64,000 bases of DNA from Actinokineospora baliensis (GTDB lineage Bacteria > Actinomycetota > Actinomycetes > Mycobacteriales > Pseudonocardiaceae): NCBI RefSeq assembly GCF_016907695.1, contig NZ_JAFBCK010000001.1, positions 5,506,001 through 5,570,000 of the forward strand. Direction: 5' to 3'. A program made the translations under genes and the position numbers. The stretch's first letter is position 1; the number at the start of each line of letters is the position of its first letter. The notes under the pieces were generated by a model, which was not told where the DNA came from, did not search any database, and saw only the letters and a list, made by a program, of their open reading frames with translations. This document shows, in pieces, positions 4,932 to 60,200 of this stretch.

Positions 4932-5672
4932 ATGACTTACGCCCCCAGTCGCACTCATGATCCGGGGGTGGTGTCACCGGGCCTGGACGTGGGCAAGGGC
5001 AACCACCACGCTGTCGGCTTGGACGCGGCAGGCAAGCGACTGCACGACGGGCCACTGCCCAGCAGCGAGACCAAGCTGCGCACGCTGTTCGACAAGCTCG
5101 CCAAGCATGGCGCGCTGCTGGTGGTGGTCGATCAACCCGCGACGATCGGCGCTGCCGGTCGCGGTCGCCCGCGCCGCAGGCCACCAGGTCGCCTACCTCC
5201 CCGGCTTGGCCATGCGACGCATCGCCGACCTCTATCCCGGGCGGGCGAAGACCGACGCCAAGGACGCGTTCATCGTCACCGCGATCCTGACAGCGATGGA
5301 CGAACAGGCGGTCACCGTCCCAGGCACCGCAGCAGCCGACACCGTGCTGCCCCGCCTGGCCGACAGCCTGAAAACCGTGCTCCAACAACGCAAACAGGTC
5401 GACGCCGAGGTCGAAGGGATACTCGATGCGCACCCTCTCGCCGGGGTCCTGACCTCGATGCCCGGCATCGGGGTCAGGACCGCCGCCCGGATCCTGCTGG
5501 AGATCGGCGACGTCTCCAGCTTCGCCTCCTCGGCCCACCTGGCCGCCTAGGCAGGCATCGCCCCGGTCACCAGCAGCTGGCCCGCCGCCGCTGCGACGTC
5601 CTGTTCGCCATGCTCCGCAACAAGACCTACTACAGGCCACCTGAGCCTGTTCCCGCCCTGGCCGCGACTTGA
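4932..5672 (+). pseudogene. Decayed IS110-family transposase
   Basis: The DEDD-type RuvC-like N-terminal domain is recognisable (SPGLDVGKGNHHAVGLDAAG, then LVVVDQP in one frame). At about 5150 the homology jumps to the next frame (GHQVAYLPGLAMRR, then RAKTDAKDAF). The C-terminal helix-hairpin-helix domain of Transposase_20 (TSMPGIGVRTAARILLEIGD) ends at a stop at 5550. Homology resumes with AGIAPVTSS and then, in yet another frame and after loss of the middle of the domain, RRCDVLFAMLRNKTYY. At least one frameshift, one stop and one internal deletion make it non-functional. IS110 elements lack classical terminal inverted repeats and none are seen, so the ends are not defined. Confidence 0.88.
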
Positions 5673-6932: not shown

Positions 6933-9900
6933 ATGGCCAGGACAACAGCTCTCTTCGGCGTGCTCGCGGTGTCGGCGGTGTTGGCCGCCTCGGCGCAACC
7001 TGTCTACGCCGCACCCACCCCGACGGCGGCGGCCCAAGTGGAGCCGACGCGCAAGTCCACCCGGTGCCCCACGACCGCGACACCACCCCCGGCGGTCGAC
7101 CGGTCGGAAGCGCCCGCGCCGCGGCAGTTCGCCTTCGCACGACAGAAGACCGCTGCGACCTACACCGCGCCGGACACTCCACTGAGGATGATCCCGGGTG
7201 ACACCTACCCGGTCAAAGTGGAGCTGAGCAACACCACCACAACCACTTGGACCAAGGGTTCCCTCGCTCTGTCCTACCACTGGACCCTGGCGCCTGGCGA
7301 CCAAGACGGGCGGACCGCGACCCCGCTGCCCTCGGACCTCACACCCGGACAGTCGGCGACCATCGAGGTTCCGGTCGTCGCCCCGATCGCGGCGGACATC
7401 GGCAACACGCGCGAGCAGTGGGTGTTGCGGTGGGACCTGCGCGACACCAAGACCCGCCGCTGGCTGTCGGACAACGGTGGCCCCGCCACGCTCGACCAGC
7501 CCACCACGGTGGAGAACCCGACCTCGGACCAGCTCGGACTGGAGAAGTACTTCCAGTTCACCGGCACGGCCACCGGCGGCGGCACCGCGGTCAGCGTCAA
7601 CCAGTACAGCGGCAACGCGGTCCTGAGCCACAACATCCTCAACAACCCCAGCCGCGGTCTGTCCACTTTCGCCAGGATCACCTACAACAGCCTCGACGCC
7701 TCGAACTCCTACGCGGGCCGTGGTTGGTCGGTGACCGCATCGACCCTGCAGCGCCTCGGCACGCCGCTGCAGTTCGACGGTCTACTCGGGACGATCCTCA
7801 CCGGACACCCCAGCAAGATCACCCTCGTCGACGGCGACGGCACTGGGCACACCTTCGAGCTTAACAAGCACGACACCGGTGACACGGCCCGCTGGACCTA
7901 CGACCCGCCCGCCGGGTTCCACACCCTGCTGCGCCGCGACCCCGGCCGTGACGACAGCAAGCGCTGGGTGTTCACCGGGCCCGACCGGACCTCGATGTAC
8001 TTCGACGCTGAGGGCTACCAGAGCGCGTCGGTCGACCGCAACGGCAACCAGATGACGTTCCACTACGAGCGGGGCGCCATCGGCAACCGCGGCGGCAAGC
8101 TGCTCACCCACCTGACCGACGCGGCGGGCAGGCGCACCCTCACCCTCGACTACTACCGCCCCGGTGACGACGCCACCGTGTTCCACGGCGACCGCCGCGC
8201 CACCGAGAAGGCGGGCCTGTCGCTGCTCAACCAGCTCCGGTCGATCACCGACGCCTCCGGCAGGGTGGTCACCTTCGCCTACACCGACAACGGGCAGCTG
8301 CGTGAGCTCGTCGACGGCGCGGGCACCCCCGACGCGAAGGTCTACGGGTTCCTGCACGACAGCGCGGGCGTGCTGGCCAGGGTGGTGGACCCCAACGGCG
8401 GCGCCAGCCAGGTCCAGTATTACGACCGCGGCGATCGTGAGCGCAAGGGCCGCGTGCGCGCAGCGGTCGACCGGGCAGGCGGGGTGCTTGGCTTCGACTA
8501 CGCCGACCCCGACGGCGACAAGGGTTCGGCGATCGCCTCCCGCACCACCGACGCCAACGGGCACAGCACAGACTACGTCGTCGACGGCTACGGCCGGGTC
8601 GAGCGGATCAGCAATGCGAAGGGCGAGACCACCCAGCTCGCCTGGGACGCCGACAACAACGTCGTGCGGATCCGCGAGGACAACGGCGCCACCACCACGT
8701 GGCGGTACGACCCCAAGACCGGCTACCCGCTGGAGATCCGCGACGCCGAGAGTCACGCCCAGGGCTACCCGGGCACCGCGCTCACCTACCGCACCGAGCT
8801 CGACGGGTACGTCGCCGACCTGGTGGAACGCCGTTCCCCGGAGGGTCGCCGCTGGTTGTTCGTCCATGACGAGCGCGGCAACCTGGTGTCGATCACCGAC
8901 CCCAAGGGCACCGCGACCCCGGACGAGGGCGACTACACCTCCCGCTACACCTACGACGAGCTCGGGCACCTCACCACCACGACCGACGCCAACGGCCACC
9001 GGACCACCTACGCCGACTACGACGCCAGCGGCTACCCGCGGCGGATCACCGACCCGCTCGACTGCTCGTCGTTGTTCGCCTACGACGAGGTCGGCAACGT
9101 GGTGTCCACACTGGACGCCAAGCGGCACACCAGCACGTTCGGCTACGACGTGTTCCGGCGACCGCTGGCGAGCCGGGTGCCCAAGGACGCCGCGGCGGGC
9201 GCCTACATCACCACGCCGGGCGCGGTCTACGACGGCAACGACAACGTGGTCAAGCTGGTCGCCGCCAACGGCGCGGTCACCAGCACCCAGTTCGACGCCC
9301 TGGACCGCCAGGTCGCGGTGACCTCGCCCCGCGACGACGGACCGGACGCACCGGTCAAGACGGCGACCTTCACCTACGACCCGGTCGGCAACCTGATCCG
9401 CCAGGTCGACCCCAAGGGCACCCTCACGCCCGACCCGGACGACTACGTGACCGCGTTCCGCTACGACGAGGTCGACCAGGTCGTCGAGGTCACCGACGCG
9501 GCGGGCAAGCGGATGACCGTCGGCTACGACCGGGTGGGCAACACCACCCAGGAGGCCGACCGGCGCAAGACCGCCACCGCCGACCCGGACGACTTCACCA
9601 TCCGGCACCGCTACGACCTCAACCACCGGGTCGTCGAGAGCACCGACGCCACGGGGGCGACGACCAAGACCAAGTACTCCCCCGACGGCAACGTGGTGGA
9701 GACCGTCGACGAGGACGGCAACGCCACGACGACCACCTACGACGAGCGATCACTGCCCGTCGAGCTCAAGGAGCCGCACGACAAGGACGTCTACTTCACC
9801 ACCCGCTACGAGTACGACCAGGTCGGCAACCGCACCAAGACCACCACCCCGCGCGGGGTGCGGACCGGTGACGACCCCGACGACTTCGTGCACGCGACGG

Positions 9901-12900
9901 TCTACGACGAGCTCAACCGGGTCGCCGAAGAGGTCCTGCCGTTCGACCGCGACGACAGCTCCGTCCCCGAGGCCGACCGGATCCTGAACTCCTACGACGA
10001 GCTGGGCAACCTCACCGAGGTCAGTTCCCCGCCGTCGAAGGGCCAGTCGGCGCGCAACAAGACCCGCTACACCTACTACGACAACAACTGGACCCGCACG
10101 TCCACGGACGCGTGGGGCATCAGCACGCTCTACGACTACAACGCCATCGGCCAGCAGACCAACCGCACCCGGCTCAGCGAGGGCGGCGGGTCCGCGCGGG
10201 TCCAGTCGTGGACCTACCACCCCGACGGCAAGAAGAAGACCCGCTCCGACGGTGGTGTCCCGGTCGGGCAGCACGTGGTCGTGGTCGACAACTCCGACGA
10301 CGACACCGAGGTCACCGGCACGTGGGCGACCGTAGCCGACGAGGGCCAGTACGAGGGTTTCGACTACCGCACGCACCCGGCGGGCTCGGGCGACGACAAG
10401 GTCACCTGGAAGGCCGACATCCCCGCGTCGGGCACGTACGAGGTGGCGGTCCGCTACACCGGGGCCACCGCGAACGACGCCCGCTACACCGTCGAGCACA
10501 ACGGCGGCACCGCCGAGGTGACGGTCGACCAGAGCAAGCGCCCCGGTGAGTGGGTCGCGCTGGGCAGCTACGAGTTCACCGAGGACGAGGTCAAGAAGAT
10601 CACCCTCGGCACCTCGGCGACCGGCTCGGTCACCGCGGACGCGGTCCGGCTGGTGCGGGACAACCGCGGCGACACCGACGCCGAGGAGAAGCGGTTCGAG
10701 TACCGCTACGACGCCAACGACAACCAAGTCCTGTTGCGCGACAACAGCTCCGGGGCGCTGGTCGACGAGTACTCGATCCGCTACGACGTGCTCAACCGGG
10801 CCGACCTCGTCGAGGAGCGCGAGTCGGGCGCGGTCAAGCGCAAGACCGCGTTCTCCTTCAACGAGAACGGCAACGTCACCAAGGTCGAGCACGACGACCA
10901 GGTCGCCGTCTACGACTACGACGCCAGGGACCTGGTGACCAAGGCAGTCAACCGGCAGACCGGCGACGACGCCAGGGAGAAGACCACCACCTTCGCCTAC
11001 ACGGCGCGGGCGCACCTGGCCAAGCAGACCAAGCACAACGGCAACACCGTCGACTTCGAGTACTACCTCGACGGGCTGACCAAGCACCAGGTGGAGCGCA
11101 AGTCGGGCGGCGCGGTCGTCAACGAGCACCGGCTGGAGTACGACGACAACAAGAACCGCACCCGCGACGTGGCGAAGAAGCAGGACGCCGACAGCAAGGC
11201 GGTCAAGGACAACGACTTCCGGTACACCTTCGACCCGCGCGACCGGGTGCGCGAGGTCAAGAAGACCGGCGACTCGCCCTCGACCGAGACCTACGAGCAC
11301 GACGCCAACAACAACGTCAGCAAGCAGACCGTCGGCGGCACGACCACGGAGTACGCCTACGACCGCGACCGGCTGCTGTCGGCGACCACCGCGGGGACCA
11401 CCTCCACCTACGGCTACGACCCCTGGGGCAGGTTGCGCAAGGTCAGCTCGGCGGGCAGGCAGGTGGAGAAGTACGTCTACGACGGCTTCGACCACACCGC
11501 CGAGCACCGCGCGGGCTCCGGCGCCGCGCAACGCACCACCAAGTACGCCTACGACCCGCTCGACCGGACCGTGTCGGAGACCAGCACCGGTGGCGGCGCC
11601 AAGGACAAGAAGGTCGAGCTGCTCTACCTCGGCCTGTCCGAGCAGGTGCTCACCGAGAAGCTCAACGACAAGGTCAGCAAGTCCTACCAGTACTCCCCCG
11701 ACGGCGAACTGCTCTCGCAGATCAACGTCAAGGACGACGGCGGCAAGGAGGACAAGTACTACGCCTTCAACCCGCACTCGGACGTCGAGTCGATGTCCGG
11801 GGAGTCCGGCGACGCCACCGCCACCTACGGCTACACCGCCTACGGGCAGGACGACCAAGCCGGGTTCTCGGGCGAGGACAAGCCGGGCGCGCAGGAACCG
11901 GGCGCGCAGCCCGCCAACTCGTACCGGTTCAACAGCAAGCGGTTCGACTCGTCGTCGGGCAACTACGACATGGGGTTCCGCGACTACAGCCCGAGCCAGA
12001 ACCGGTTCCTCACCCTCGACCTGTACAACGGCGCCCTCGACGACCTCGGGTTGAGCACCAACCCGTTCACCGCCAACCGCTACAGCTTCGGCGGCGGCAA
12101 CCCCATCTCCGCGGTGGAGATCGACGGACACCTGTTCGGGCTCTCCTTCAGCGACATCGGCCACGCGGCGCTGGACGTGGCGGGCTTGATCCCGGGCGTC
12201 GGGGAGATCGCCGACGTCGCCAACGGCATCTGGTACGCCGCCGAGGGCAACTACGCCGACGCGGCGCTGTCGTTCGCCTCGGCCGTGCCGCTGGCCGGGT
12301 ACGGGGCCTCGGCGGTGAAGGCGGGCAAGTACGCCAAGAAGGGCGCCGACGCGGTCCAAGCGGGCGACAAGGTCAAGGACGCGGCGAAGACCGCGAGCAA
12401 GGTCGACCCGCCGCCCGCCGCGAAGGCCGCCGACCCGCCGCCCGCGGCCAAGCCGAAGGCCGACCCGCCGCCGACACCGAAGAAGGACGCCGCGCCCTCG
12501 TGCAAGGGCAACAGCTTCGCGGGCGACACCCCGGTGGTGATGGCCGACGGCAGCCGCAAGCCGATCTCGCGGGTCCGCGTGGGCGAGCTGGTGCTGGCCA
12601 CCGACCCGGTGACCGGGGTCAGCGCGGCGGAGCCGGTCACGGAGGTGATCACCGGGTTCGGCGTCAAGGACCTGGTCGAGCTCACCGTCGGCGGCGGCAC
12701 GGTGGTGGCGACCGCGGGGCACCCGTTCTGGGTGGCGGGCGAGCAGGACTGGCGGCCCGCGGGCCTGCTGCGGGTCGGCGACCAGGTCTCCGTCGGCGGC
12801 GAGACGGCCCGGATCACCGCCGTCCGCACGTGGACGTCGTACCTGCGGGTGCACAACCTGACCGTCGACGGGATCCACACCTTCCACGCGGGCGCCGCGG

Positions 12901-13322
12901 GTGTGGTCGTGCACAACGACGGCTGCGACCCCTTCAAGGACCTCGCCGACTACCGCGCCAGGGAGGGCATGCCCAAGGCGGGCGCGGCCGACGACGTGCA
13001 CACCGCCGCCCGGCTCGACGTGGGCGGGCAGAGCTTCTACGGCCGCAACGCGCACGACCTGCCGGTGGACATGAAGGTCAACGCCCAGACCAGGACGCAC
13101 GCCGAGGGGCACGCGTTCCAGCAGGCCAAGAACGCGGGCGCGACCGGGGAGCGGGCCACGCTCTACGTCGACCGCGACCTGTGCCGCTCGTGCGGCCGGT
13201 ACGGGGGTCTCGGCTCCCTGATGCGGGCCACCGGCGTGTCCGAACTGGTGGTGCACTCCCCAGCCGGCAGGTTCCTGGTGACGGCCAGCAGGCCGTCGGT
13301 ACCGCGACCGCTCGGAGGATGA
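6933..13322 (+). CDS. Rhs/YD-repeat polymorphic toxin with Hint and DddA-like deaminase C-terminus
   Basis: The protein is 2129 aa with an N-terminal signal peptide (about residues 1-27), so it is exported. A beta-sandwich-like N-terminal region is followed by about 1300 residues of YD/RHS repeats (for example RYDEVDQVVEVTDAAGKR). These are interrupted near residues 1110-1245 by a golvesin-C-like domain (VVVDNSDDDTEVTGTW ... YEVAVRYTG). The RHS core end (YRFNSKRFDSSSGNYDMGFRDY) precedes a Pro/Lys-rich linker. A pretoxin Hint domain (about 1856-1995, starting at CKGNSFAGDTPVVMADG) ends in His-Asn before Asp1996. The last 134 residues carry HAEG (His2056, Glu2058) and CRSC (Cys2084, Cys2087), the zinc and proton-shuttle residues of a nucleic-acid cytidine deaminase. 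Hint cleavage should free the toxin. An Imm1 gene follows 8 bp downstream. Confidence 0.9.
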   Translation: MARTTALFGVLAVSAVLAASAQPVYAAPTPTAAAQVEPTRKSTRCPTTATPPPAVDRSEAPAPRQFAFARQKTAATYTAPDTPLRMIPGDTYPVKVELSNTTTTTWTKGSLALSYHWTLAPGDQDGRTATPLPSDLTPGQSATIEVPVVAPIAADIGNTREQWVLRWDLRDTKTRRWLSDNGGPATLDQPTTVENPTSDQLGLEKYFQFTGTATGGGTAVSVNQYSGNAVLSHNILNNPSRGLSTFARITYNSLDASNSYAGRGWSVTASTLQRLGTPLQFDGLLGTILTGHPSKITLVDGDGTGHTFELNKHDTGDTARWTYDPPAGFHTLLRRDPGRDDSKRWVFTGPDRTSMYFDAEGYQSASVDRNGNQMTFHYERGAIGNRGGKLLTHLTDAAGRRTLTLDYYRPGDDATVFHGDRRATEKAGLSLLNQLRSITDASGRVVTFAYTDNGQLRELVDGAGTPDAKVYGFLHDSAGVLARVVDPNGGASQVQYYDRGDRERKGRVRAAVDRAGGVLGFDYADPDGDKGSAIASRTTDANGHSTDYVVDGYGRVERISNAKGETTQLAWDADNNVVRIREDNGATTTWRYDPKTGYPLEIRDAESHAQGYPGTALTYRTELDGYVADLVERRSPEGRRWLFVHDERGNLVSITDPKGTATPDEGDYTSRYTYDELGHLTTTTDANGHRTTYADYDASGYPRRITDPLDCSSLFAYDEVGNVVSTLDAKRHTSTFGYDVFRRPLASRVPKDAAAGAYITTPGAVYDGNDNVVKLVAANGAVTSTQFDALDRQVAVTSPRDDGPDAPVKTATFTYDPVGNLIRQVDPKGTLTPDPDDYVTAFRYDEVDQVVEVTDAAGKRMTVGYDRVGNTTQEADRRKTATADPDDFTIRHRYDLNHRVVESTDATGATTKTKYSPDGNVVETVDEDGNATTTTYDERSLPVELKEPHDKDVYFTTRYEYDQVGNRTKTTTPRGVRTGDDPDDFVHATVYDELNRVAEEVLPFDRDDSSVPEADRILNSYDELGNLTEVSSPPSKGQSARNKTRYTYYDNNWTRTSTDAWGISTLYDYNAIGQQTNRTRLSEGGGSARVQSWTYHPDGKKKTRSDGGVPVGQHVVVVDNSDDDTEVTGTWATVADEGQYEGFDYRTHPAGSGDDKVTWKADIPASGTYEVAVRYTGATANDARYTVEHNGGTAEVTVDQSKRPGEWVALGSYEFTEDEVKKITLGTSATGSVTADAVRLVRDNRGDTDAEEKRFEYRYDANDNQVLLRDNSSGALVDEYSIRYDVLNRADLVEERESGAVKRKTAFSFNENGNVTKVEHDDQVAVYDYDARDLVTKAVNRQTGDDAREKTTTFAYTARAHLAKQTKHNGNTVDFEYYLDGLTKHQVERKSGGAVVNEHRLEYDDNKNRTRDVAKKQDADSKAVKDNDFRYTFDPRDRVREVKKTGDSPSTETYEHDANNNVSKQTVGGTTTEYAYDRDRLLSATTAGTTSTYGYDPWGRLRKVSSAGRQVEKYVYDGFDHTAEHRAGSGAAQRTTKYAYDPLDRTVSETSTGGGAKDKKVELLYLGLSEQVLTEKLNDKVSKSYQYSPDGELLSQINVKDDGGKEDKYYAFNPHSDVESMSGESGDATATYGYTAYGQDDQAGFSGEDKPGAQEPGAQPANSYRFNSKRFDSSSGNYDMGFRDYSPSQNRFLTLDLYNGALDDLGLSTNPFTANRYSFGGGNPISAVEIDGHLFGLSFSDIGHAALDVAGLIPGVGEIADVANGIWYAAEGNYADAALSFASAVPLAGYGASAVKAGKYAKKGADAVQAGDKVKDAAKTASKVDPPPAAKAADPPPAAKPKADPPPTPKKDAAPSCKGNSFAGDTPVVMADGSRKPISRVRVGELVLATDPVTGVSAAEPVTEVITGFGVKDLVELTVGGGTVVATAGHPFWVAGEQDWRPAGLLRVGDQVSVGGETARITAVRTWTSYLRVHNLTVDGIHTFHAGAAGVVVHNDGCDPFKDLADYRAREGMPKAGAADDVHTAARLDVGGQSFYGRNAHDLPVDMKVNAQTRTHAEGHAFQQAKNAGATGERATLYVDRDLCRSCGRYGGLGSLMRATGVSELVVHSPAGRFLVTASRPSVPRPLGG

Positions 13323-13329
13323 GCCACCC

Positions 13330-13722
13330 GTGACCGTGCTGAGCATCCACTCCTGGACCGGCCAACGCGAGCAGTCCGAGGAGGTCACCGACCCCACCTG
13401 GGCCGACGCGGAGTCCGCGCTGCGCAGGCTGGACAACCGGGTGACCAGCCAGGTCGGTGTCGAGACCGACGCGGGCGACTACGTCTCCGTCGGCGGCGGC
13501 GACGGCCGCTACCACGTCGTGCTCGGCACCGCCGACGACGACCTGTTCACCCTGCGCGGGGGCGCGGGGGCCGAGGACGAGACCGCCCAACTGGTGGTCG
13601 GCGGGCAGCTCGGCAACTACCCGGCCGACCAGGTCGTCGACTTCGACCTGGCGGCCCGGGCGGTGCGCACGTTCCTCGCGGAGCACTCCGCCGACCCAGA
13701 CCTGGACTGGCTGCGCGAGTAG
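13330..13722 (+). CDS. Imm1-type immunity protein
   Basis: This 130-aa cytosolic protein starts at a GTG with GGAGGA upstream, 8 bp after the toxin stop. It follows the Imm1 pattern: an N-terminal strand, a helix (WADAESALRRL), a beta-rich middle, then VVGGQLGNYPADQVVDF, a helix and a final DLDWLRE. Imm1 proteins are known as immediate neighbours of deaminase-superfamily toxins in polymorphic toxin systems. Here it should bind and block the C-terminal deaminase of the preceding protein, protecting producer and kin. The assignment rests on the pattern and the position together; no catalytic motif is expected. Confidence 0.8.
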   Translation: MTVLSIHSWTGQREQSEEVTDPTWADAESALRRLDNRVTSQVGVETDAGDYVSVGGGDGRYHVVLGTADDDLFTLRGGAGAEDETAQLVVGGQLGNYPADQVVDFDLAARAVRTFLAEHSADPDLDWLRE

Positions 13723-13753: not shown

Positions 13754-14803
13754 ATGAGGTTCACCAGGGCAGCGGTCCTGGCCGTGGTCGTGGTCGCCAC
13801 GACCGCGGTCCCGGCGGTGGCGGGTGGTGGCACCGACCTGCCGCTGCCCGCGTTCGGCGACATCGCCGTCGACCAGGTCCACCAGCGGGTGTTCGTCAGC
13901 GGCGGGCCGACGGCGAACGGGATCGTGGTGACCGACCTGCGCGGCAAGGTGGTCAAGCGGCTCGACGGCCAGCCCGGCGCCACCGGTCTGGAGCTCAACG
14001 CCGACAGCACCCGGCTCTACGTGGCGCTGGCCGCCGGTGACGCCATCTCGGTCATCGACACCACGACGCTGGCCGAAACCGACCGCCACGCCACCGGTAC
14101 CTCCAGCTGCCCCACCCACCTGGCCCGCACCGGCGCCCTGATCTGGTTCGGCTACGGCTGCGCCGCCGACTGGAACGCCAAGATCGGTCGCCTCGACCCC
14201 GCGGCAACACCCCCGGTCGACACCAGCAAGCCCTACGGCGGCGCCACCTACCAACGCGCTCCCCTGCTGTCGTCCACCGGGGCCGAGAACGGTCCGCTGG
14301 CCGCGGGGCAGCTGTCGCTGAGCCAGTCCACCATCCGCACCTACACCCGCTCCGGTTCCGACCTCACCGCCGCTGCCACCAGCGACACCGTCGGCGCGGG
14401 CCTGGTCGACCTGTCCACCACACCGGACGGGTCCACGCTCTACAGCGCCACGACGTCCCGCACGACGGTCGACGCCTACGCCCCCACCACCCTGGCCCGC
14501 CGCGGCGCCTTCACCACCGGCACCCGCCCGATCGCCGTGGCCGCCTCCCCCGACAACGCCTTCGTGGCCACGGCCGTCGCCACCAACGCCCCCGACGACG
14601 TCAAGGTGTACCGGGCGGGCGGCACCTCGCCGGTGGCGACCTTCGAGATCCCCCGCACCGAGGTGGCCGCCACCCGGGGCCTGGCCTGGACCCCCGACCT
14701 GTCCCGGCTGTACGTGATCACGCAGACGATCACCGACCCGGCACCCCACCTGCGGGTGATCACCGACCCGACGGACGACCCCTGCGTCCTGCTCTGCGAC
14801 TAG
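13754..14803 (+). CDS. Secreted YncE-like beta-propeller protein
   Basis: The ATG at 13754 is preceded by AGGAGG at optimal spacing. The 349-aa product has a clear signal peptide (MRFTRAAVLAVVVVATTAVPAVAGGG) and then repeating propeller blades such as FGDIAVDQVHQRVFVSGG, LNADSTRLYVALAAGD and TTPDGSTLYSATTS. These proteins usually bind ligands or scaffold complexes rather than catalyse reactions. It sits 31 bp after the immunity gene on the same strand and probably shares its mRNA, but nothing in it ties it to the toxin mechanism. A bidirectional hairpin ends the unit. Confidence 0.8.
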   Translation: MRFTRAAVLAVVVVATTAVPAVAGGGTDLPLPAFGDIAVDQVHQRVFVSGGPTANGIVVTDLRGKVVKRLDGQPGATGLELNADSTRLYVALAAGDAISVIDTTTLAETDRHATGTSSCPTHLARTGALIWFGYGCAADWNAKIGRLDPAATPPVDTSKPYGGATYQRAPLLSSTGAENGPLAAGQLSLSQSTIRTYTRSGSDLTAAATSDTVGAGLVDLSTTPDGSTLYSATTSRTTVDAYAPTTLARRGAFTTGTRPIAVAASPDNAFVATAVATNAPDDVKVYRAGGTSPVATFEIPRTEVAATRGLAWTPDLSRLYVITQTITDPAPHLRVITDPTDDPCVLLCD

Positions 14804-14876: not shown

Positions 14877-16175
14877 TCAGCGGTGGTGCAGGCCAGCGGA
14901 GAGGCCCCGGATCAGTTCGCCCTGCGGGGTGTCGCCGTCCAGGGACCAGATCATGGCGCCGCCCAGGCCGCGGTCTCGGATGTAGCGGCCCTTGCGGGTG
15001 AGTTCCGTTGGGTCGTCGTAGGTCCAGAACGTGGTGCCGTTGAAGAGCCAGGCGTGGCCTGCTTTGTTGTCGCGGTGGAGTTTGTAGGTTCCGGCGGCGA
15101 GCAGGCCCTTGAGGATGCGGTAGTCGTCGTAGCCCGCTTCGTAGGTGCCGGGGGCGGGGCCGGTGGACTGTTGGAACAGGCCGTTGTTCTGGTTGGGCAG
15201 GCCGGTCCAGCCGCGGCCGTAGTAGGGGACGCCCAGGGTGATCTTGGCTCGGGGGGCGCCGCGGTCCAGGTAGGCGTTGACGACGATCTCGCCGCTGTCC
15301 TTGGGGGTGGTGGGGTCGCCGTCGGGAACGCGCAGGGCGGACTGCTGGTTCGCGGTCCGCTCCCAGGCGCCGTGGTAGTCGTAGCCCTGGATGGTGGCGA
15401 AGGTCAGGAGGCGGAACACCTCGGTGGTCTCGTAGCCGCGGTCGAGGGCCTCGCGGTTGGCGGGCAGGAACGCGGTCAGGTCGTAGCGCTTGTGCTCGGC
15501 GCGGCCCAGCCGGTCGAGTTGGGTGCGGTACTCGCGCAGCAGCGCGGTGAAGTTCTGCTTGTCCTCGGGGCGCACGACGTTGCCCGCGTTGCCTTCAGTG
15601 GCGGGCCATTCCCAGTCGAGGTCGATGCCGTCGAACACGCCCTTGGCGGCACCGGCGGGCGCGCCGGGCAGGTTTCCCTTGAGCCACAGGTCAATGCAGG
15701 ACTTCACGTGCGCGGCACGCGACTGCGGGGTCAACGCGGCGTTGGAGAAGTAGGTGGAGCCGATCCAGCCGCCGAGGGAGATGTAGACGCGCAGCTTGGG
15801 GAACTTCTGCTTGAGTTGCTTGAGCTGGTTGAGGTTGCCCGCCAGCGGTTGCCCGGGCCGGTCAGCCTTGCCGTTGACGGAATCCCGAGCGGGGATCAGC
15901 CGCTGGTAGTCGGCCGCCGGGTCGGAACTGACGCACCCGCCGCGTTCGTCGAGCAGGCCGAAGGCGTAGTTGACGTGCGTGAGCTTCGCCGCCGTGCCGT
16001 TGTCCACGGTGTAGCGGACGGGGATGCCCCTGTCCTGGTAGCTCCACTGCGTGTAGTACCCCACCGTGCGCACCCCGGCGTCGCCACCGTGGGCCTGCGC
16101 GGGCGTCCCGCCCACCGCCAACCCCGCGGCCACGGCGCCGGCCGCGACCAGGGCGCCCCACCTCTTCCCGGACAT
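14877..16175 (-). CDS. Secreted GH18 chitinase
   Basis: The ATG at 16175 follows GGGGAGGA and starts a typical signal peptide (KRWGALVAAGAVAAGLAVGGTPAQA); ATGs 30 and 36 nt upstream are less well placed. The 432-aa protein is a single GH18 TIM barrel. It has the SLGG strand (VYISLGGW), the catalytic DxxDxDxE motif as DGIDLDWEW (Glu189 the acid/base) and later QGYDYHGAW and GGAMIWSLDGD. It should cleave beta-1,4-GlcNAc linkages in chitin outside the cell by substrate-assisted catalysis. There is no visible carbohydrate-binding module, which is shorter than many actinobacterial chitinases. Confidence 0.93.
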   Translation of the reverse strand: MSGKRWGALVAAGAVAAGLAVGGTPAQAHGGDAGVRTVGYYTQWSYQDRGIPVRYTVDNGTAAKLTHVNYAFGLLDERGGCVSSDPAADYQRLIPARDSVNGKADRPGQPLAGNLNQLKQLKQKFPKLRVYISLGGWIGSTYFSNAALTPQSRAAHVKSCIDLWLKGNLPGAPAGAAKGVFDGIDLDWEWPATEGNAGNVVRPEDKQNFTALLREYRTQLDRLGRAEHKRYDLTAFLPANREALDRGYETTEVFRLLTFATIQGYDYHGAWERTANQQSALRVPDGDPTTPKDSGEIVVNAYLDRGAPRAKITLGVPYYGRGWTGLPNQNNGLFQQSTGPAPGTYEAGYDDYRILKGLLAAGTYKLHRDNKAGHAWLFNGTTFWTYDDPTELTRKGRYIRDRGLGGAMIWSLDGDTPQGELIRGLSAGLHHR

Positions 16176-16354
16176 GGTCCTCCCCAACACTCGGGTCATG
16201 GTCCAGACCAATCTAGGGGAAGATCGCGACCGGGCATACGCCCAGACGGGGCGATCCGGACATCCGGCCCGCCGCAGACGAGCACCACCACATATCGTCG
16301 CTGTATCGAAAACCGCATACGCCGTCGCAACGGGCCGCTGGGTTCACTGCGCGG

Positions 16355-50027: not shown

Positions 50028-51221
50028 ATGACCAACAGCATGTTCGACCTGATCAGCGAGCAGGACGAGAACCGCCCGTACTTCGCCACCGGGGGTCGGG
50101 GCCGCACGCACGCGTTCTACACCGGCGAGGAGCAGTTCCGGCTGGAGATGGAGCAGGTGTACGGCAAGAAGTGGCTGCCGGTGGACCACGTGTCCCGCTT
50201 CCAGGAGAAGGGGTCCTACGCGACCCTCAACATCGGCAGCGGGTCGATCCTGCTCATCAACGGGGACAACGGGATCCAGGCCTACCACAACTACTGCCGC
50301 CACCGCGGCTACAAGCTGGTGGAGGAGCCCGCTGGCAAGCGGCAGAGCATCGTGTGCATCTACCACTGCTGGGTCTACGACCGCAACGGCAAGCTGAAGA
50401 GCCTCAACGGGACCTACTTCGACCACTTCTTCGACAAGGAGAAGAACGGGTTGCTGCCGGTGCGCACCGAGGTGCGCTTCGGGGTGGTGTTCGTCGCGTT
50501 CTCCGACGAGGCGGGCGACCTGGACGAGGCGCTCGGCGAGTTCGGCACCTTCGCCGCCGCCTACGACCTGGAGTCGCTGGTCTGCGCGCAGGCCAAGGAC
50601 TACCCGGTGGCGTCGAACTGGAAGCTGGTGGCGCACAACGTCAACGAGAGCCTGCACTTCCCCACCGCGCACAAGGACCTGCACAAGATCACCGACTTCG
50701 ACGACTCGGGCACCTACGAGCTGCGCGGCGACATCGTCGGCGCGTGGCAGGTGATCAGGTCGAAGTACAACTCGGTGTCGATGACCGGCCGCAGCGACCG
50801 GGCACCGATGCCCAACGTGCCGCCCGGCGACCTGCACAAGATCAACTGGATCACCATCCTGCCGAACCTGCTGTTCGGGTTCACCGCCGACTACGTGATG
50901 ATGCAGTGGGTCTGGCCGGAGAGCCCCGGCACCTGCACGGTGCGGCACTTCTGGCTGTTCCACCCGACCGAGACGGCCAAGCCGGACTTCTCGCACGAGG
51001 CCGTGTTCGCGTTGTGGGACAAGGCGAACTACGAGGACTGGGAGCTCTGCGAGCGCACCCACCGCGGCCTGTCGAACCCGATGTGGTCGCCAGGGCAGCT
51101 CTCGCTCGACGAGGAGGTCGTCTCCCAGATCGACCAGTGGGTGGCACAGCTGACCGAACCGGCCAGAACCGGCAACGGTGGCGGCGCGGAGAACAACGGC
51201 GCTGGGGCGGCTCGGTCATGA
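50028..51221 (+). CDS. Rieske non-heme iron oxygenase, alpha subunit
   Basis: The 397-aa protein starts after CGAGGAG. The Rieske [2Fe-2S] ligands are CRH (in NYCRHRGYK) and CIYH, 16 residues apart, and the mononuclear iron site is NVNESLHFPTAH with a distal Asp in LSLDEEV. The fold matches aromatic-ring-hydroxylating oxygenase alpha subunits, which hydroxylate, demethylate or desaturate using electrons from a reductase. No ferredoxin or reductase gene is adjacent, so electrons must come from elsewhere or possibly the FAD protein. Its stop overlaps the ATG of the giant synthase (ATGA), tying it to that pathway. Confidence 0.92.
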   Translation: MTNSMFDLISEQDENRPYFATGGRGRTHAFYTGEEQFRLEMEQVYGKKWLPVDHVSRFQEKGSYATLNIGSGSILLINGDNGIQAYHNYCRHRGYKLVEEPAGKRQSIVCIYHCWVYDRNGKLKSLNGTYFDHFFDKEKNGLLPVRTEVRFGVVFVAFSDEAGDLDEALGEFGTFAAAYDLESLVCAQAKDYPVASNWKLVAHNVNESLHFPTAHKDLHKITDFDDSGTYELRGDIVGAWQVIRSKYNSVSMTGRSDRAPMPNVPPGDLHKINWITILPNLLFGFTADYVMMQWVWPESPGTCTVRHFWLFHPTETAKPDFSHEAVFALWDKANYEDWELCERTHRGLSNPMWSPGQLSLDEEVVSQIDQWVAQLTEPARTGNGGGAENNGAGAARS

Positions 51222-54200
51222 CCGACTGCGTTGTCCTCGGCGGCACTCGTGTGGCGCTGCGGGTCACCGCCCGGCTGGTCGAGGCCGGGGTGCGGGTCCG
51301 CGCGGTGCTGACCGACGACCCCGTGTTCGCGGCGTGGCTGGCCGAGCGGGACATCCCGGTGCTGGCCCCGACCGCGGACCTGGTCGGCCCGCTCGCCGGG
51401 AACCCGGTGGACTACCTGATCAGCGTCGTCAACTTCCGGCTGCTCACCGCCGAGGAGCTCGCGCTGCCGCGGGTGGCGGCGATCAACTTCCACGACGGGC
51501 CGCTGCCGCGCTACGGCGGCAGCAATGTCGCGGCGTGGGCGATCTACGAGGGCGCGGCCCGGCACGCGGCGACCTGGCACGCGATGGTGCCCGCGGTGGA
51601 CGCGGGCCCGGTGCTGGCCGAGCGGTGGTTCCCGGTCCGGGAACACTCCACCGCGCTGTCGCTGACCTACGAGGCCGCCGAGGTCGGGATCGCGCTGTTC
51701 GAGGAGCTGGTGCCGCACGTGGTGGCGGGCACGCTGCCCGAGCCGGTGGACACCGGTGACCGGGAGCGGCGGTTCTACCGGCGTTCGCACCGGGTGCCGG
51801 GACTCATCCACGCGGGCACCAACGCCGTCGAGGCCGAGCGCATCAGCAAGGCCATGGACTTCGGGTCCTTCCCCAACCCGCTGGGCATCCCCGCAGTGGT
51901 GACCCCGCGCGGTGCGGTGTTCACCCAGCAGGTGCGGCGGATCGCGCGGGAGGACGAGAGCATCGGGTTGGTGGCCGCGGCGGCGACCGAGTCGGCGTTG
52001 AAGCTGTCCGCGCCCAACGCCGACCTGGTGATCAGCGACCTGACCGCGGTCGACGGCACCGCGCTGACCGGCCGGGCCGCGGCCCAGCGCCTGGGGCTCA
52101 CCCCCGGCGCGGCCGTCCCGGCGGCCGACCCCGAACTGCTCGCGGCCGTCGCAGGCGCCCTGGCCCCGTTGCGCCGCCACGAGCCGTGGTGGCGGGAGCG
52201 GTTGGCCGGTCTGCGCCCGGCGCCGGTGCCCGCCGCGGACTTCTCCGCCGCGACCGCGCACTACCACCGCTGCGAACTGGCGTACGTGCCGACCGACCAG
52301 GACGAGACCCGGGCGTTCGCCGGGGCGTTCCTGGCGGTGCTGGCCGAGCACATGGGTGAGCCGCGGTTCGACTTCTCCTGGACGACCTCGGCGTTGCTGC
52401 GGCGGTCGGACACCGCTCTCGGCCTGGCGTCGCCGCGGGTGCCGGTCCGGTTCGACGCCGAGGCGCCCGAGGACCTGGCCGTCCGGTTCGACGAGGCGAC
52501 CGGGAAGCTCGGCTACGCCACGGACCTGGAGCTGCGGCTGGGCCTGCTGCGCCGCACGCACGGGGCGGATGGACCCACGTTCACCCGGATCGTCCTGCTG
52601 GAGCGCGAGGACGAGGAAGAGGCCTCGGTCGACGCCGACACCGAGTTCGCGCTGCTGTGCCGCGGCGGGCTGCCGCCGACGCTGTTCGTGCGCGAGACGG
52701 CGATGACGCAGGACGCGGTGTTCGACCTGGTCGACCGCATTGAAGAGCTCGCCCTGACCGGCCTGGTCCTGGGCGGCGGTTCGACCAACGCGCAGGTCGT
52801 CCCCCTGCCCGAACCCACCGTCGAGGCGGTGGTCCCCGTCGAGATCGCTGACCCGACGGTCTTGGACCTGATCGCGGCGGCTGCGGCGGCCCGCCCGGAC
52901 GCCGTGGCGGTTCGGTCCTCGCGTGGCGAGATCACTTACGCGCAGCTGGACTCGTGGTCGGACTCGATCGCCGTTCGCCTGCACGACGAGGGCATCGACG
53001 GCGACAGCGTCGTCGGTGTGCTGACCGAGCGCGGCCTGGAGTTGCTGCCCGCGATGCTGGGCGTGCTCAAGGTCGGCGCCGCGATGCTCCCGCTCGACCC
53101 CGGGTTCCCCGCTGAGCGGTTGGCCCGCTACACCCAGGTCGCGGGCTGTGACCTGGTGCTCGCCGACGGCTGGACCCAGGCGGTGGCCGAACCGCTCGGC
53201 GCCGCCGACATCGGCGTCGACGACGGGTCCGCGCTGGCGATCCCGCCCACCGTGGGCGGCGACGACCTGGCGTACGTGCTGTTCACCAGCGGGTCGACCG
53301 GCGAGCCCAAGGGCGTGGAGGTCCAGCACACCGCGCTGGCGAACTTCCTGGTCGGCATGGCCGAGCGACTCGGGATCACCGAGGACGACCGCGTCCTGGC
53401 GCACACCACCACCGCCTTCGACATCTCCCTCATGGAGCTCCTGCTCCCGCTGACCGTCGGTGCGACCGTCGTCCTGGCCACGCGGTCCGAGACCGCGGAC
53501 CCGGCCAAGCTGGTCGAGCTGGTGTCGGGGGTGTCGATCGCGCAGGCCACGCCGAGCCTGTGGCGGCTGCTGCTCGACCTGGAGTGGGAGCCGCACCCGG
53601 GTCTCACCGTCTGCTCAGGCGGCGAAGCCCTACCGCCCGCCCTGGCTCGACGACTGGGTACGGGCGCGGCGTTGTGGAACCTCTACGGGCCAACCGAAGC
53701 AACGATCTGGGTCACCGCGCAGCGGGTCGAGTCCGTGGGGTCGTTCCTCCCGCTGGGCGCGCCGCTGCCCGGGGTGGGTCTGCACGTGCTTGACCACGAC
53801 GGTCAGCCCTGTGTGGAGGGTGAACTGCACCTGTCCGGCGAGCAGTTGGCCCGCGGGTACCGCAACCGACCGGAGCGCACGGCCGAGGCATTCGTGACCC
53901 GCGGCGGGCAGCGCCTGTACCGCACCGGTGACCTGGTCCGCGCGCACGACAAGGGCACCATCGAGTGGCTGGGCCGCCTCGACGGGCAGGTCAAGGTGCG
54001 CGGCAACCGGGTCGAGACCGGCGAGGTCGAGTCGGTGCTGGCCGAGGTGCCGGGTGTGGTGGCAGCGGCGGTCGTGGCGGTGCCGTTCGAGGGCACGGGC
54101 GAGCCGAGGTTGACCGCCTACCTGGTCGGTGCGGTGCCGGGCAAGACCGAGCTGGACGCGTTCGTCTCGGCGCGGCTGCCCGAGTACATGGTGCCGGGGT

Positions 54201-57200
54201 CGTACGTGGTGTTGTCCGCGCTCCCGTTGACCGACAACGGGAAGGTGGCCCGCAAGCTGCTACCCGCGCCGACGCGCGACACGGTTCTGCGCACAGAGCA
54301 GCCCCCTGTTCCCGATCCGACCACAGTTGCAGAGCCGGCCGCGGTTGCAGAGCCGGTCGCGGTTGCAGAGCAGGCCGTGATCCCCGAGCCCGTCGCACCC
54401 CCCGCGCCGGAAACATCCACTGTGGACTTTGCGGCAGTGGTGGCCGAGGTGTTCGCCTCTGTCCTCGGGCACCGCGAGTTCGGCGTGCACGACAACTTCT
54501 TCGACCTCGGCGGCGACTCCGCGTCCGCACCGGTCGCCGCCATCGCCCTGAGCAAGCGGCTGGGCACCGAGATCACCCCGCCCGCCCTGTTCGCCACCGG
54601 CACCCCCACCAAGCTCGCTCACCTCCTCGGTGGCACGCCCGAACCCACCGCCCCCGTAGAGCCGGTGCGAGTCCCGGCCGAAGTGGCGGTGCCTCGGGTC
54701 GCTGAGCCGCGCGACGATGACCTGGCGATCATCGGGATGGCGTGCCGGTTCCCCGGGGCGGCGACCCCGGATGAGTTCTGGGCGAATCTGGCGGGTGGCC
54801 TGTCGTCGGTGGGGTCCGCACCGGAGGGCCACCGCGGGTGGGCGCACCTGTGGACCAACGAGGACGAGGTGCCGACCGGCTGGGTGGAGCGGGTCGAGTG
54901 GTTCGACCCGGCCCGGTTCGGGTTGACCGCCCGGGAGGCACGCAGGCTGGACCCGGCGCAGCGGCTGTTGTTGAGCGTCACCGCCGAGGCCCTTGAGGGT
55001 GCCGGGCACGACGCCCGGTCGCTCGGGGCGGGTACCGGGGTGTTCTTCGGCACGATCTCCAGCGATTTCCCCGAGTTGGTGGCGGGCAGCATCGGGTCGG
55101 CCGACCCGCACGTGGCCACCGGCACGGCGCTGTCGATGCTGGCCAACCGGGTTTCGCACGTGTTCGGTTGGTCGGGCACGAGCGTCGCGGTGGACACGGC
55201 GTGCTCGTCGTCGCTGGTGGCGCTGCACATGGCGGCGCTGCACCTGCGCACCGGTGAGCTGGACGCGGCTGTGGTGGGCGCGGCGAACCTGGTGCTGACG
55301 CCGACCAAGACGCGGTCGTTCGCCCGCAACGGCATGCTCTCCCCCACCGGCCAGTGCCGGGCGTTCGACGAGGCCGCCGACGGGTACGTGCGCGGTGAGG
55401 GCGCCGGTGTGCTGGTGCTCAAGCGGCTCAGCGACGCTCTCGCGGCCAACGACCCCGTGCTCGCGGTGGTCCGCGGCACAGCGGTCAACCACGTCGGCGG
55501 CGGTGGGTTCCTCACCGCGCCCAGTGCGACAGCCCAGGAAGCGGTCATCCGGCGGGCGCACGCCGTCGCCGGGATCGACGGCTCCGGCATCGGGTACGTC
55601 GAGGCGCACGGCACCGGGACCCGACTCGGCGACCAGATCGAACTCGAGGCGCTGCGGTCCGCGTTGACCGGGGCGGCGCCGGGTTCGGTGCCGGTCGGCT
55701 CGGTGAAGACGAACGTCGGGCACCTGGAGCCCGCGGCGGGTGTGGCCGGGTTGATCAAGGCCGTGCTCGCGGTGCAGGCGGGGCAGGTGCCGCCGTCGGC
55801 GAACCTGAGCGCGCCGACCTCGGCGTTCGCGTTCGAGGACTCGCCGTTGTTCGTGCCGGACCGGCTGGTGCCGTGGACCGGGCCGAGGGTGGCCGGGGTG
55901 AGCAGCTTCGGCTTCGGCGGCTCCAACGCCCACGCCGTGCTGGCCGCGGCCCCGGACCGCCCGCTCGCCGACACCCCCGGCCCGCACCTGGTGGTGCTGT
56001 CCGCGGCGTCCGCCCCGGCCCTGCGGACCCTGGCCGACCGGCTGGTGCGGATGCTGCGCGCCCCGTACTGCCCGCCGCTGGCCTCGCTGGCTGCGGCGAG
56101 CCGGGAACGGGCACCGCTGGCGCACCGGCTCGCCTGTGTCGTGGATTCCGCCGAGCAACTCGAAGACAAGTTGATGCTGTTCCTGGCCGATGTCGTGGGC
56201 GCTCGCCTGCACATGGGTGTGGCCGCGGAAGCCCGCTCGGCGATCGCCGAGCCCACCGGTGACCGCAAGGCGCTGGAGCAGGCCGCGAGCGCGTTCGCGG
56301 CGGGCGGTGACCTGCCGGTGCGCCCACGTGGCGCGGCGGTGCGGTTCCCCACGGCACCGCACGAGGAGCAGCACCTGTGGCTGATGCCGCGGGTGGTCGA
56401 GCAGCAGCCGGTCGAACGGACCCGCACCTGGGCGGACCTTGCCGAGGCGGTCGAGCACGTCGTCCGCGGGGTCCCGACCCTGCCGGGCGCGGCGTACCCG
56501 GGCAAGGTGGCCGAACTGGTCGGGCGGACCCGCTTCGGGCTGCGCGACCTCACGCTGCGCGACACCGTCCGCTCCCCCGGTTCGCTGACCGGCCGGGTCG
56601 ACGGCGACGCGGTCGTTTTCCGCGACAGCGCGGGCACAACTGTGTGCGACGCGCGGATCGAGGAGCCGTCGGCCGAACCGCCGACCATCCCCGACTCCGC
56701 GACAGCACCGGTTGACCTGGCGCGGTTCTACCAGGACTTCGCCGAGGCGGGCCTGGGCTACGGTCCCGGGTACCGCTGCCTGACCGCACTGTCCACAGGG
56801 GACGGCTTCGCGATCGGCACCGTGCGGGTCGACTCGACGAGCGGACCGGTGGACGCCCGGCTGCTCGACGGCGCGTTCCAGGTCGCCTTGGCGGCGTGCG
56901 GTGCTCGTGGTCTGCACGTGCCGTTCGCGCTGGGGCGGTTGTCGGTGCTGGGCCCGGTGCCCGCGACGGCCAGGGTCGAGGCGGTGCGTGACCGCGCGGG
57001 ATCGGGTCTGCTGACCGCCAGCCTGGTGATCTTCGACGGGACCACCCCCGTGCTGGTCGCTCGCGGTGTGACGTGGAAGCGCCTCGACACCCCCGCTCCC
57101 GTCGTCCAGCCCGCTCCCGCCGCCGCGCCGGTCGCCCCGGTGGTCCGGGTGGGCGGGGCGCTGGCCGCGGCTGTGACCCAGTGGGTCGCCGACGCGCTGG

Positions 57201-60200
57201 AGACCGACGCCGCCGCGTTGGAACGGGACAGACCCCTGGAGGAACAGGGCCTGGACTCGATGGTCGCCGTGTCACTGGCGCAGGACCTGCGCGCCCGGCT
57301 CGGCGTGGACATCCCGGTCACCCTGGTCCTGGAGGTCGGCACGGTCGACGCCCTGGTCGCCGAGCTGCGCGACGGGTACGGCGTCGCCGATGTGCCCGCC
57401 GGGGTCCCCGCGCTGAACGGAGCGGGCTCGGACCCTTCGGTGGCGGAGGTCGCCCAGCCCTCGACCTCCGCCGTTGACCGACCCCTGGGCACGACCACCA
57501 ACCCCGCAGCCATCAACCCGGAGAGCACCGACATCGCGGTGATCGGTTTCGACGGGGTCTTCCCCCACGCCGCCGACCCCCAGGAGCTCTGGCGGGTGCT
57601 GACCGGGGCGCAGGACTGCCTCACCGAGGTGCCGCGGTCCCGATGGGACCTCGACGCCTACTACGCCGAGGACTCCGGCCCCGGCACCGTGTACCTGCGG
57701 CGCGCCGGGTTCGTCGACGAGCTCACCGGGTTCGACGCGGGCTTCTTCCGCATCGCCCCGACCGAGGCGCGCTGGATCGACCCGCAGCAGCGGCACCTCC
57801 TGCGCGTCGTGTGGCGGGCCATGGAGGACGCGGGCATCTCGGGGCGGTCCGGCCGCTCGGTGGGGATGTTCGTCGGCGCCAGCTACCAGCACTACCGCGA
57901 CCAGGTCGTCGGCGACGTCGTGCAGACCGCAGCGGGGTTGGGCAACCACAACGCCATCCTGGCCAACCGGGTCAGCCACTTCCTGGACCTGACCGGCCCG
58001 AGCATGACCATCGACACCCTGTGCTCGTCGTCGCTGGTCGCCCTGCACACGGCCGTCCGGGGCATCCTCGACGGCGAGTGCGAGCAGGCCGTGGTCGCTG
58101 GCGTGCACTTGGCGCTCTCGCCGCACTACTTCCAACTCGGGTCGCGGCTGCGGTCGTTCTCCCGCACCGGCGCGTCACGGGCGTTCGACGTGGACGCCGA
58201 CGGGTTCGTCCCCGGTGAGGGCGTGGTCGCGGTGGTGCTCAAGCCGCTGGCCGCGGCTCTGCGCGACGGTGACCGGGTGCGCGGTGTCATCAAGGGCACC
58301 GCGGTCAACCACGGCGGCCGCACGAGCGGGCTGACCGTGCCCAGCAGCACCGCCCAGCACGAGGTGATCTCCGCCGCGCTGGCCCGTTCCGGCGTCAACC
58401 CGGAGACCATCGGGATGCTGGAGGCGCACGGGACCGGCACGAGCCTCGGCGACCCGATCGAGGTCGAGGGCCTGACCAAGGCGTGGCGCAAGCACACCGA
58501 CCGCACGCAGTTCTGCGCGATCGGCTCGCTGAAGTCCAACATCGGTCACCTCGAGCCCGCGGCCGGGCTGGCCGGGCTGGTGAAGGTCCTGCTGGCGATG
58601 GAGCACGGCAAGATCCCGCCGACGCTGCACGTGAACCGGCCCAACGACCACATCCGGTTCGAGGACACGCCCTTCTACATCGCCGACCGGCTGCACGAGT
58701 GGACCTCGGACACGCCCCGGCGGGCCGCTGTCTCCGCGTTCGGCATGGGCGGCGTCAACGCCCACGTCGTCCTGGAAGAGGCACCGCCGCAGCACAGTCG
58801 CGATCTGTCCACTCAGGACAACACGCTGGTCAGGATCAGTGGCGCGACTGAGAACGCGGTGCGCGCACTGGCCACCGACTACGCCGAACACCTCGACCGG
58901 CACCCCGGTACCGAACTGGTCGACTTCGCGCACACCGCCAACGCGGGCCGCGCCGAGCACCGGTACCGAGCAGCGGTCCTGGCCACCGACCGCGCCGACC
59001 TCGCCGCGCAACTGCGGGCAGTGGGTGGCGGTGACCGGCCTGTGGTCCGGTCTGGGGCAAAGGCACCGCTGGCGTTCCTGTTCACCGGCCAGGGGTCGCA
59101 GTACCCGGGTATGGCGCGTGGGCTCTACGACAGCGAGCCGGTGTTCCGTACCGCGTTCGACGAGTGCGCTGACCTGGCGGAACCGTTGCTGGGCCGGGAC
59201 TTGCGGGGATTGGTGTTCGGCGCGGACGAGGCCGAGCTGACCAGCACCGAGCACGCCCAGGTCGCGATCGTCGCGGTCCAGGCCGCGCTGGTGCGGCTGC
59301 TGGCGGGTTGGGGCGTCGTTCCCGACGTCGTCGCTGGTCACAGCGTTGGTGAGCTCGCAGCCGCACATGCTGCCGGAGCGCTGTCCCTCGCGGACCTCAT
59401 CGGGTTGACGGTTCGCCGGGGTGCCGCCATGGCCGCGCAACCCACGGGTGGCGGGATGGCGGTGGTGCACGCTGACGCCTCGACCGTGCTGGCGGAGCTG
59501 GCCGGGCACCCCGAGGTCGAGGTGGCGGCGCTCAACTCGCCCACCAACACCACCGTGTCCGGGCCGCGTCCGGCGCTGGAGCGGTACCTGGCCACCACGG
59601 CGCACCGGCACACGGTGCTGACCGTGAGCCACGCGTTCCACTCGGCGATGATGTCCGGCGCGGTGCCGGTGTTCGCCGAAGCCGTGCGCTCGACCAGGTT
59701 CACCGACGCCACCGTCCCGTTCGTGTCCACCCGCACGGGTACCTGGCACACGGCCGAGTCGCTGCGCGAACCGGCGGGCTGGGCGGCGGCGATCCGCGAA
59801 CCAGTCCGGTTCTCCGACGCCGTGACCGCGGTGCACGAAGCCGGGGCTCGGGTGTTCGTCGAGATCGGCCCCGAGCAGGTGCTGCTCCCGCTGGCGCGGG
59901 CAGTGCTGCCCGAGGGCGCTGGCCGGTTCCTGCCGACGCTGCGCAAGCGGGTCGGCAACCAGACCACCTTGCTGACCGCGCTCGCCGAGCTCTACCGGGA
60001 CGAGGGCGTCGCCGTGGACTGGACGGCCGTGCACGCGGGCCGGGGTGGGCGGACCACGACGATCCCGGCGTACCCGTTCGAGCTCAGCCCGCTGGCCGCC
60101 CCGGCCGTGCAGGAGAGCGTGGCCACCGTGCCGCCCCGGGCCACTCCCCCGGCGCACCCGCTGTTCGACAACCACTACGAGCGTTCGAGCGAGGACCAGT

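Follow-up and report, generated by a model that had tools for sequence, protein, structure and literature searches.

In a stretch of 64,000 nucleotides from Actinokineospora baliensis (RefSeq assembly GCF_016907695.1, contig NZ_JAFBCK010000001.1, positions 5,506,001 to 5,570,000; the window), the gene of an Rhs protein ends in a deaminase domain (the tip) and is directly followed by an Imm1 immunity gene. This locus is a genuine deaminase toxin/immunity module. Probably, it is a polymorphic toxin module in which an Rhs-borne tip of a PF14437-type family is neutralised by an Imm1 protein resembling DddI, the immunity partner of the deaminase DddA. In the proposed mechanism, the apparently secreted Rhs carrier would present or enclose the C-terminal deaminase domain, and Hint self-cleavage next to Asn1995 would free the 134-residue tip. 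The tip would then enter a competing bacterium and deaminate nucleic-acid bases, most likely cytosine in DNA, and the uracil thereby formed would lead to mutation and death of the target. The producer would be protected by Imm1 from the next gene, which may cover the active site of the tip as DddI does on DddA. The analysis shows the domains, the predicted fold, the pairing, the co-divergence of tip and partner and the exchange of tips in the slot, from which cleavage, delivery, catalysis, substrate and neutralisation are inferred. Coordinates refer to the window, and those written with two dots lie on its plus strand.

Deaminase tip, Hint domain and immunity partner

The tip (residues 1996-2129, 134 aa; 12918..13319) scored 68.2 bits against PF14437 (MafB19-deam; cut-off 27) when searched alone and 61.7 bits within the whole protein. 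Its structure model (predicted local distance difference test, pLDDT, 85.5) has a deaminase fold with a C-terminal hairpin directly after helix 3, and together with the profile match this predicted fold supports the view of a preliminary description of the locus that the domain is a deaminase toxin tip. The motifs, spacings and positions given there were also found again: HAEG at residues 2056-2059 and CRSC at 2084-2087, with 28 residues from His to the first Cys and three from Cys to Cys. By superfamily precedent, His2056 of HAE (13098..13106) would be a zinc ligand and Glu2058 the catalytic residue, while Cys2084 and Cys2087 of CRSC (13182..13193) would be further zinc ligands. In an alignment of the window tip with 35 of its 43 relatives (excluding loci L007, L027, L038, L039, L043, L044, L045, and L047), His, Glu, and both Cys were invariant in 36/36 tips. 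The motif is regarded as more than a chance occurrence because PF14437, PT-HINT, and Imm1 all score over their cut-offs.

The Rhs carrier (2129 aa; 6933..13322) was called as an open reading frame (ORF), with RHS_repeat at E 9e-61 and Rhs_assc_core (TIGR03696) at residues 1649-1733. Four kinds of part exceeded the Pfam cut-offs, namely RHS repeats, Golvesin_C, PT-HINT, and MafB19-deam. Residues 1-26 form an apparent signal peptide, as judged by eye. Delivery independent of type VI secretion, as proposed earlier, is in line with the Pfam and NCBIfam searches, where no type VI component turned up within the carrier, the carrier and not the genome having been searched. The predicted Hint domain was likewise recovered, since PF07591 (PT-HINT) matched residues 1871-1996 with 44.7 bits (cut-off 27.7) and Hint motifs were present. 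This pretoxin-Hint domain (12513..12917) comprises Ser1861, TAGH at 1927-1930, and His1994-Asn1995, where we take Ser1861, His1930, and His1994-Asn1995 to be the catalytic positions. The Hint block ends with His1994-Asn1995 and the tip begins at the next residue, Asp1996; self-cleavage would thus be expected just before Asp1996, coinciding with the tip start set in the preliminary description.

The Imm1 ORF (130 aa, GTG start; 13330..13722) starts seven bases past the Rhs stop codon. It had been named as a fitting Imm1 partner, and a search against PF14430 gave 40 bits (cut-off 22.4). The protein is predicted to be alpha/beta with the same fold as DddI. A search of PDB sequences with the immunity protein alone returned two unrelated matches only (E 0.8), and a search with the immunity profile placed DddI first (E 0.017). 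The sequence profile match being weak, the likeness to DddI is settled by the predicted fold.

With each species represented by one genome, a scan revealed 43 loci with tip relatives: 7 are actinobacterial and 31 cyanobacterial, and single loci come from a planctomycete, Polyangium, Aquabacterium, Paracoccus, and Stenotrophomonas. With the partner defined as the first ORF of 125-180 aa inside 400 bases of the tip, a partner ORF (129-177 aa) was found at 42 of the 43 loci. It lay 13 bases or less from the tip stop in 37 of them, and in the remaining five (L027, L038, L039, L043, L047) the tip frame is broken; the tip is broken as well at L045, the single locus without a partner ORF. Together with the window Imm1 and one database protein, the partner ORFs share five invariant positions, and 40/44 match PF14430 at E 0.01. 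Distances among tips and among immunity proteins were correlated (r 0.92 for 36 pairs, the same eight loci being omitted as from the tip alignment), which is above all 2000 permutations with shared descent of the hosts uncorrected. For the 12 non-cyanobacterial pairs r was 0.80, a value reached in 0/2000 permutations, with the same shared descent uncorrected.

Family assignment and probable substrate

The preliminary description had placed the tip among the SCP1.201-like deaminases (PF14428), to which DddA belongs, on account of its His-Cys spacing and the Gly after the Glu. Both marks lost their value as pointers to DddA. The spacing is 28 residues in 33 of the 36 aligned tips (30 in two, 31 in one) and therefore is a mark of the tip's own family, not specific to DddA, and Gly after Glu is the minority state (Gly 3, Ala 33). 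A search with the window tip and 17 relatives did not list PF14428 at E up to 10, nor did one with the 36 aligned tips at E up to 1; these negatives are limited by the HMMER filters, which discard most matches above E of about 0.1. PF14437, in turn, matched 36/36 tips at E 1. In 101 genomes of the host order, PF14428 was found at 31 places in 9 genomes, 6 of these places lying in the A. baliensis genome itself and the window tip not being among them. After omission of five domains (for shortness, interruption, an odd frame or lack of a locus), 26 of these 31 DddA-like domains were aligned; PF14428 matched 26/26 and PF14437 0/26. In the sets examined, the PF14428 and PF14437 groups do not overlap.

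That the tip is a diverged but true DddA/SCP1.201-like cytosine deaminase acting on double-stranded DNA (dsDNA), along the line of the preliminary description, is nevertheless weighed here, and we regard it as unlikely. Apart from the equal His-Cys spacing and the partner with DddI fold, this explanation draws on the Foldseek search, in which DddA chains had the top TM-scores among the 50 matches listed (0.53 and 0.52), and on the profile-profile comparison of the tip family with the 26 DddA-like domains, which gave the strongest match of all the comparisons made (E 0.0063 over 71 columns). The probability of that profile match, however, was 5.9%, and with a broader tip alignment the comparison fell to E 0.022 over 34 columns; DddA-like against TadA-like as background gave E 0.14. 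Profile comparison is weak for both candidate kinships and leaves room for a distant origin shared with DddA, with no proof of it. A further point against a true DddA-like dsDNA deaminase is DddA Phe1375, just before the second zinc Cys, which intercalates into dsDNA and whose replacement by Ala or Arg abolishes activity (PMC10442228). The corresponding place is Ser2086 in the window tip and Ala in 30, Ser in 6, and Phe in none of the 36 tips. The dsDNA aspect is thereby weakened: the replacement speaks against the dsDNA mechanism of DddA without showing another one. By eye, Phe is also not kept at this place in the DddA-like domains of the host order, and the window tip has Gln and Tyr where DddA has Ala1341 and Met1379, as counted from the motif. 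SCP1.201 membership was rejected on the missing PF14428 match, the weak profile-profile comparison, and the differing Phe1375 position. What stands of the DddA label is the mechanism, in part: a looser working mode like that of DddA-DddI is supported by the deaminase fold and the likeness of Imm1 to DddI.

It also appears improbable that the tip is an RNA- or tRNA-directed deaminase (of cytosine or adenine) functionally nearer to TadA than to DddA. PF14437 is a broad profile with matches in 12/14 control genomes and 61/61 genomes of the host order, thereby also picking up TadA-like proteins in ordinary genomes; its 26 top matches in the host order resemble TadA once aligned, by what we take to be the TadA motif. 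The tip aligns to PF14437 positions 7-124 of 142, and most top TadA-like rows extend to 139-142. Kinship with TadA by profile comparison was weak and was rejected (26 TadA-like proteins; E 0.17 over 37 columns, 0.078 with the broader alignment). A C-terminal hairpin right behind helix 3, as in the tip model, is not known for TadA, and partners of the DddI type have been described for a DNA deaminase. TadA entries were not among the 50 matches listed in either structural search, which excludes nothing.

Very unlikely is a deaminase of free nucleosides or nucleotides that would starve or poison the target: cytidine and blasticidin S deaminases ranked top by Z among the 50 structural matches listed, but the first zinc ligand is Cys in CDA-type enzymes and His in the tip, and the toxin deaminases tested in PMC7901873 act on DNA. 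Searches of PDB sequences contributed no closer relative, with no match to the tip at E 10 and two unrelated matches only to the tip profile (E 0.9). The tip is best classed as a hairpin deaminase of PF14437 type that is sequence-distinct from DddA and has a DddI-like partner.

For this PF14437-type toxin, analogy would put cytosine in DNA first among the substrates because single-stranded DNA (ssDNA) is acted on by many PF14428 proteins, as stated in a comment on Huang et al. 2023 (PMC10847098), SsdA prefers ssDNA (PMC7901873), and C.G-to-T.A changes are produced by a deaminase toxin of Streptomyces that is paired with Imm1 (PMC11062931). Of the two DNA forms, ssDNA would be the likelier one, and RNA or adenine are possible substrates.

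Toxin slot, distribution and cyanobacterial relatives

Relatives of the carrier N-terminus were found in 12 genomes besides the own one, at 13 places, among 120 genomes of the host family. The C-terminus was readable in 11 of these 13 carrier stretches, the frame or contig ending early in two. The tip profile matched 0/13 at E 1, and several of the alternative tips resemble HNH-type nucleases by eye. Behind the window's toxin and immunity genes lies a conserved, secreted-looking neighbour without Pfam match (13754..14803), which also follows the carrier in L171, L172, L173, L174, and L183 with 50-61% identity. The toxin and immunity genes therefore sit in a slot that is bounded by the conserved Rhs core on one side and by this conserved neighbour at the far end, since carrier relatives bear other tips and five keep the flanking gene. 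Features of polymorphic toxins, that is one carrier with differing tips and an immunity gene directly behind the tip, are present.

The tip is rare nearby (2/200 genomes of the host order), and 7 relatives occurred among 72,556 plasmid records. Two of these were inspected, a HecA-family adhesin in Agrobacterium and a hypothetical protein in Nostoc, each with an Imm1-like gene behind it. In viral contigs, 44 stretches bear the patterns and 0 are relatives of the tip. Base composition gives no signal of tip transfer (GC content of tip and carrier 0.73 and 0.69, GC at third codon positions 0.95 and 0.96), and a promoter and terminator scan found nothing at the junction.

Imm1 genes in the host order lie at 52 places, of which 30 accompany DddA-like genes and one accompanies the window tip. 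Behind 30/31 DddA-like matches, an Imm1 match follows at a distance of 33-357 bases. Imm1 thus serves two deaminase families, being found behind DddA-like genes and behind the window tip. Zhang et al. list Imm1 alongside SCP1.201 deaminases (PMC3482391), and no paper describing a PF14437 toxin paired with Imm1 was noticed in the open-licence literature, most subscription papers being outside this scope. Upstream of Imm1 genes without DddA-like gene, no clear shared toxin was seen by eye in 14 stretches covering 15 of 21 such places, a total that excludes the place in the window. In the own genome, an Imm1 match follows directly behind each of the six PF14428 domains (near G000:C1 708401, 1221616, 1964750, 2354382, 4820395, and 7248468), and three further Imm1 genes without DddA-like gene upstream (L084, L085, L086) are possible orphan immunity genes.

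Among the cyanobacterial relatives, 17/31 have open frames that span no more than 131-145 codons. The ratio of non-synonymous to synonymous changes (dN/dS) among intact tips was 0.07-0.44 in 12 chosen pairs (simple count), and the frames therefore seem to be under selection. Upstream codons were surveyed at 23 cyanobacterial loci: 20 belong to the 31 relatives, and three were newly found when 386 genomes were searched. The 10 matches of that search also included five repeats of known loci, one fused upstream, and one weak. Loci fused upstream (L014, L016, L017, L038), with altered 5′ ends (L044, L047), or of another subclade (L022, L024, L025, L028, L029) were omitted. The codon four ahead of a conserved Phe is ACG in 14 loci, ATA in four, ATG in two, and ACT, AAA, and GTA in one each. 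An AGGA-like sequence stands just upstream in 12/14 ACG loci, and no ATG, GTG or TTG occurs from the upstream stop to the ACG in L015, L019, L023, L026, L033, L035, L040, and L136. Short-frame deaminase genes followed by Imm1, with the conserved ACG at the likely start, were seen in L015, L019, L023, L026, L032-L035, L040, L136, and others. Several caveats apply: TTG is the fourth codon of the tip in L015, L019, L023, and L032, the frame is open further upstream in L031, L032, L034, and L046, 4/14 ACG loci (L027, L039, L043, L045) have broken tips, and the loci share ancestry with one another. It is quite possible, but tentative, that DddI-type immunity guards two sequence-distinct deaminase families, the second of which has a carrier-free cyanobacterial deaminase/Imm1 operon with a conserved ACG start. 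A weak ACG start, if true, would hold the toxin level below that of the immunity protein; that cytosine deamination of ACG to AUG raises toxin output is extremely improbable. No report of ACG starts in such genes was noticed within the same literature scope.

Besides the toxin module, a Golvesin C-terminal domain (residues 1116-1242; 10278..10658; PF25275, 121 bits) lies amid the Rhs repeats, as also in 4/17 relatives. An apparently frame-broken IS110-type transposase (4932-5672) lies upstream of the Rhs gene, a chitinase-like glycosyl hydrolase family 18 gene at 14877-16211 on the minus strand, and at 50171-60202 a gene for a 3343-aa protein resembling non-ribosomal peptide and polyketide synthases (NRPS/PKS), with formyl transferase, AMP-binding, ketosynthase, and acyltransferase domains.

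Significance and comparison with known systems

Compact bacterial deaminase toxins have been turned into base editors for mitochondrial and nuclear DNA, and the three toxin deaminase families compared in PMC7901873 each have their own sequence context. The tip family, with about 130 residues, occurrence in several phyla, and its own inhibitor, escapes the DddA profile. It raises the question how one immunity fold blocks two deaminase families with hardly any sequence likeness, for which the six DddA-like/Imm1 pairs of the own genome are a natural cross-protection comparison.

SsdA (BaDTF2) of Pseudomonas syringae differs from the present system in that its immunity protein is all-helical (PMC7901873) and the window Imm1 is alpha/beta; also, its Ser-Gly-Trp motif (SGW) does not occur in the 134 tip residues. 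The sce3516-like toxins of Zhang et al. 2012 (PMC3482391) share with the tip HAE, the hairpin division, Hint, Rhs, and occurrence in actinobacteria and proteobacteria, but pair with SUKH immunity instead of Imm1. A search for sce3516 in 115 genomes of the myxobacterial order returned the known Polyangium locus and 15 partial matches (E 7e-6 to 0.08), and did not identify the prototype. MafB19-like deaminases (PF14437) are alike in that the window tip scores over the cut-off and all aligned tips match, and unlike in that the tip stops at profile position 124/142 and is predicted to end in a hairpin, and in that the profile is broad and covers TadA-like proteins. UmbC1-UmbD1 of Streptomyces coelicolor (PMC11062931) is likewise an actinobacterial polymorphic toxin that is secreted, bears a cytosine deaminase at its tip and pairs with an Imm1 immunity protein, but its carrier is an umbrella particle and that of the window an Rhs protein. 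DddA-DddI of Burkholderia cenocepacia (SCP1.201-like, BaDTF1, PF14428) differs from the window pair by its Pfam family, neither profile having matched the members of the other group in the sets examined, by the Phe1375 that is replaced in the tip, and by delivery through type VI secretion (PMC7901873), where the window carrier has a Hint domain and an apparent signal peptide. The HxE/CxxC zinc site common to both is superfamily-wide and thus not diagnostic. Both are alike as toxin tips with a hairpin-type deaminase fold bearing HxE and CxxC, and the immunity protein of the window is predicted to share the fold of DddI.
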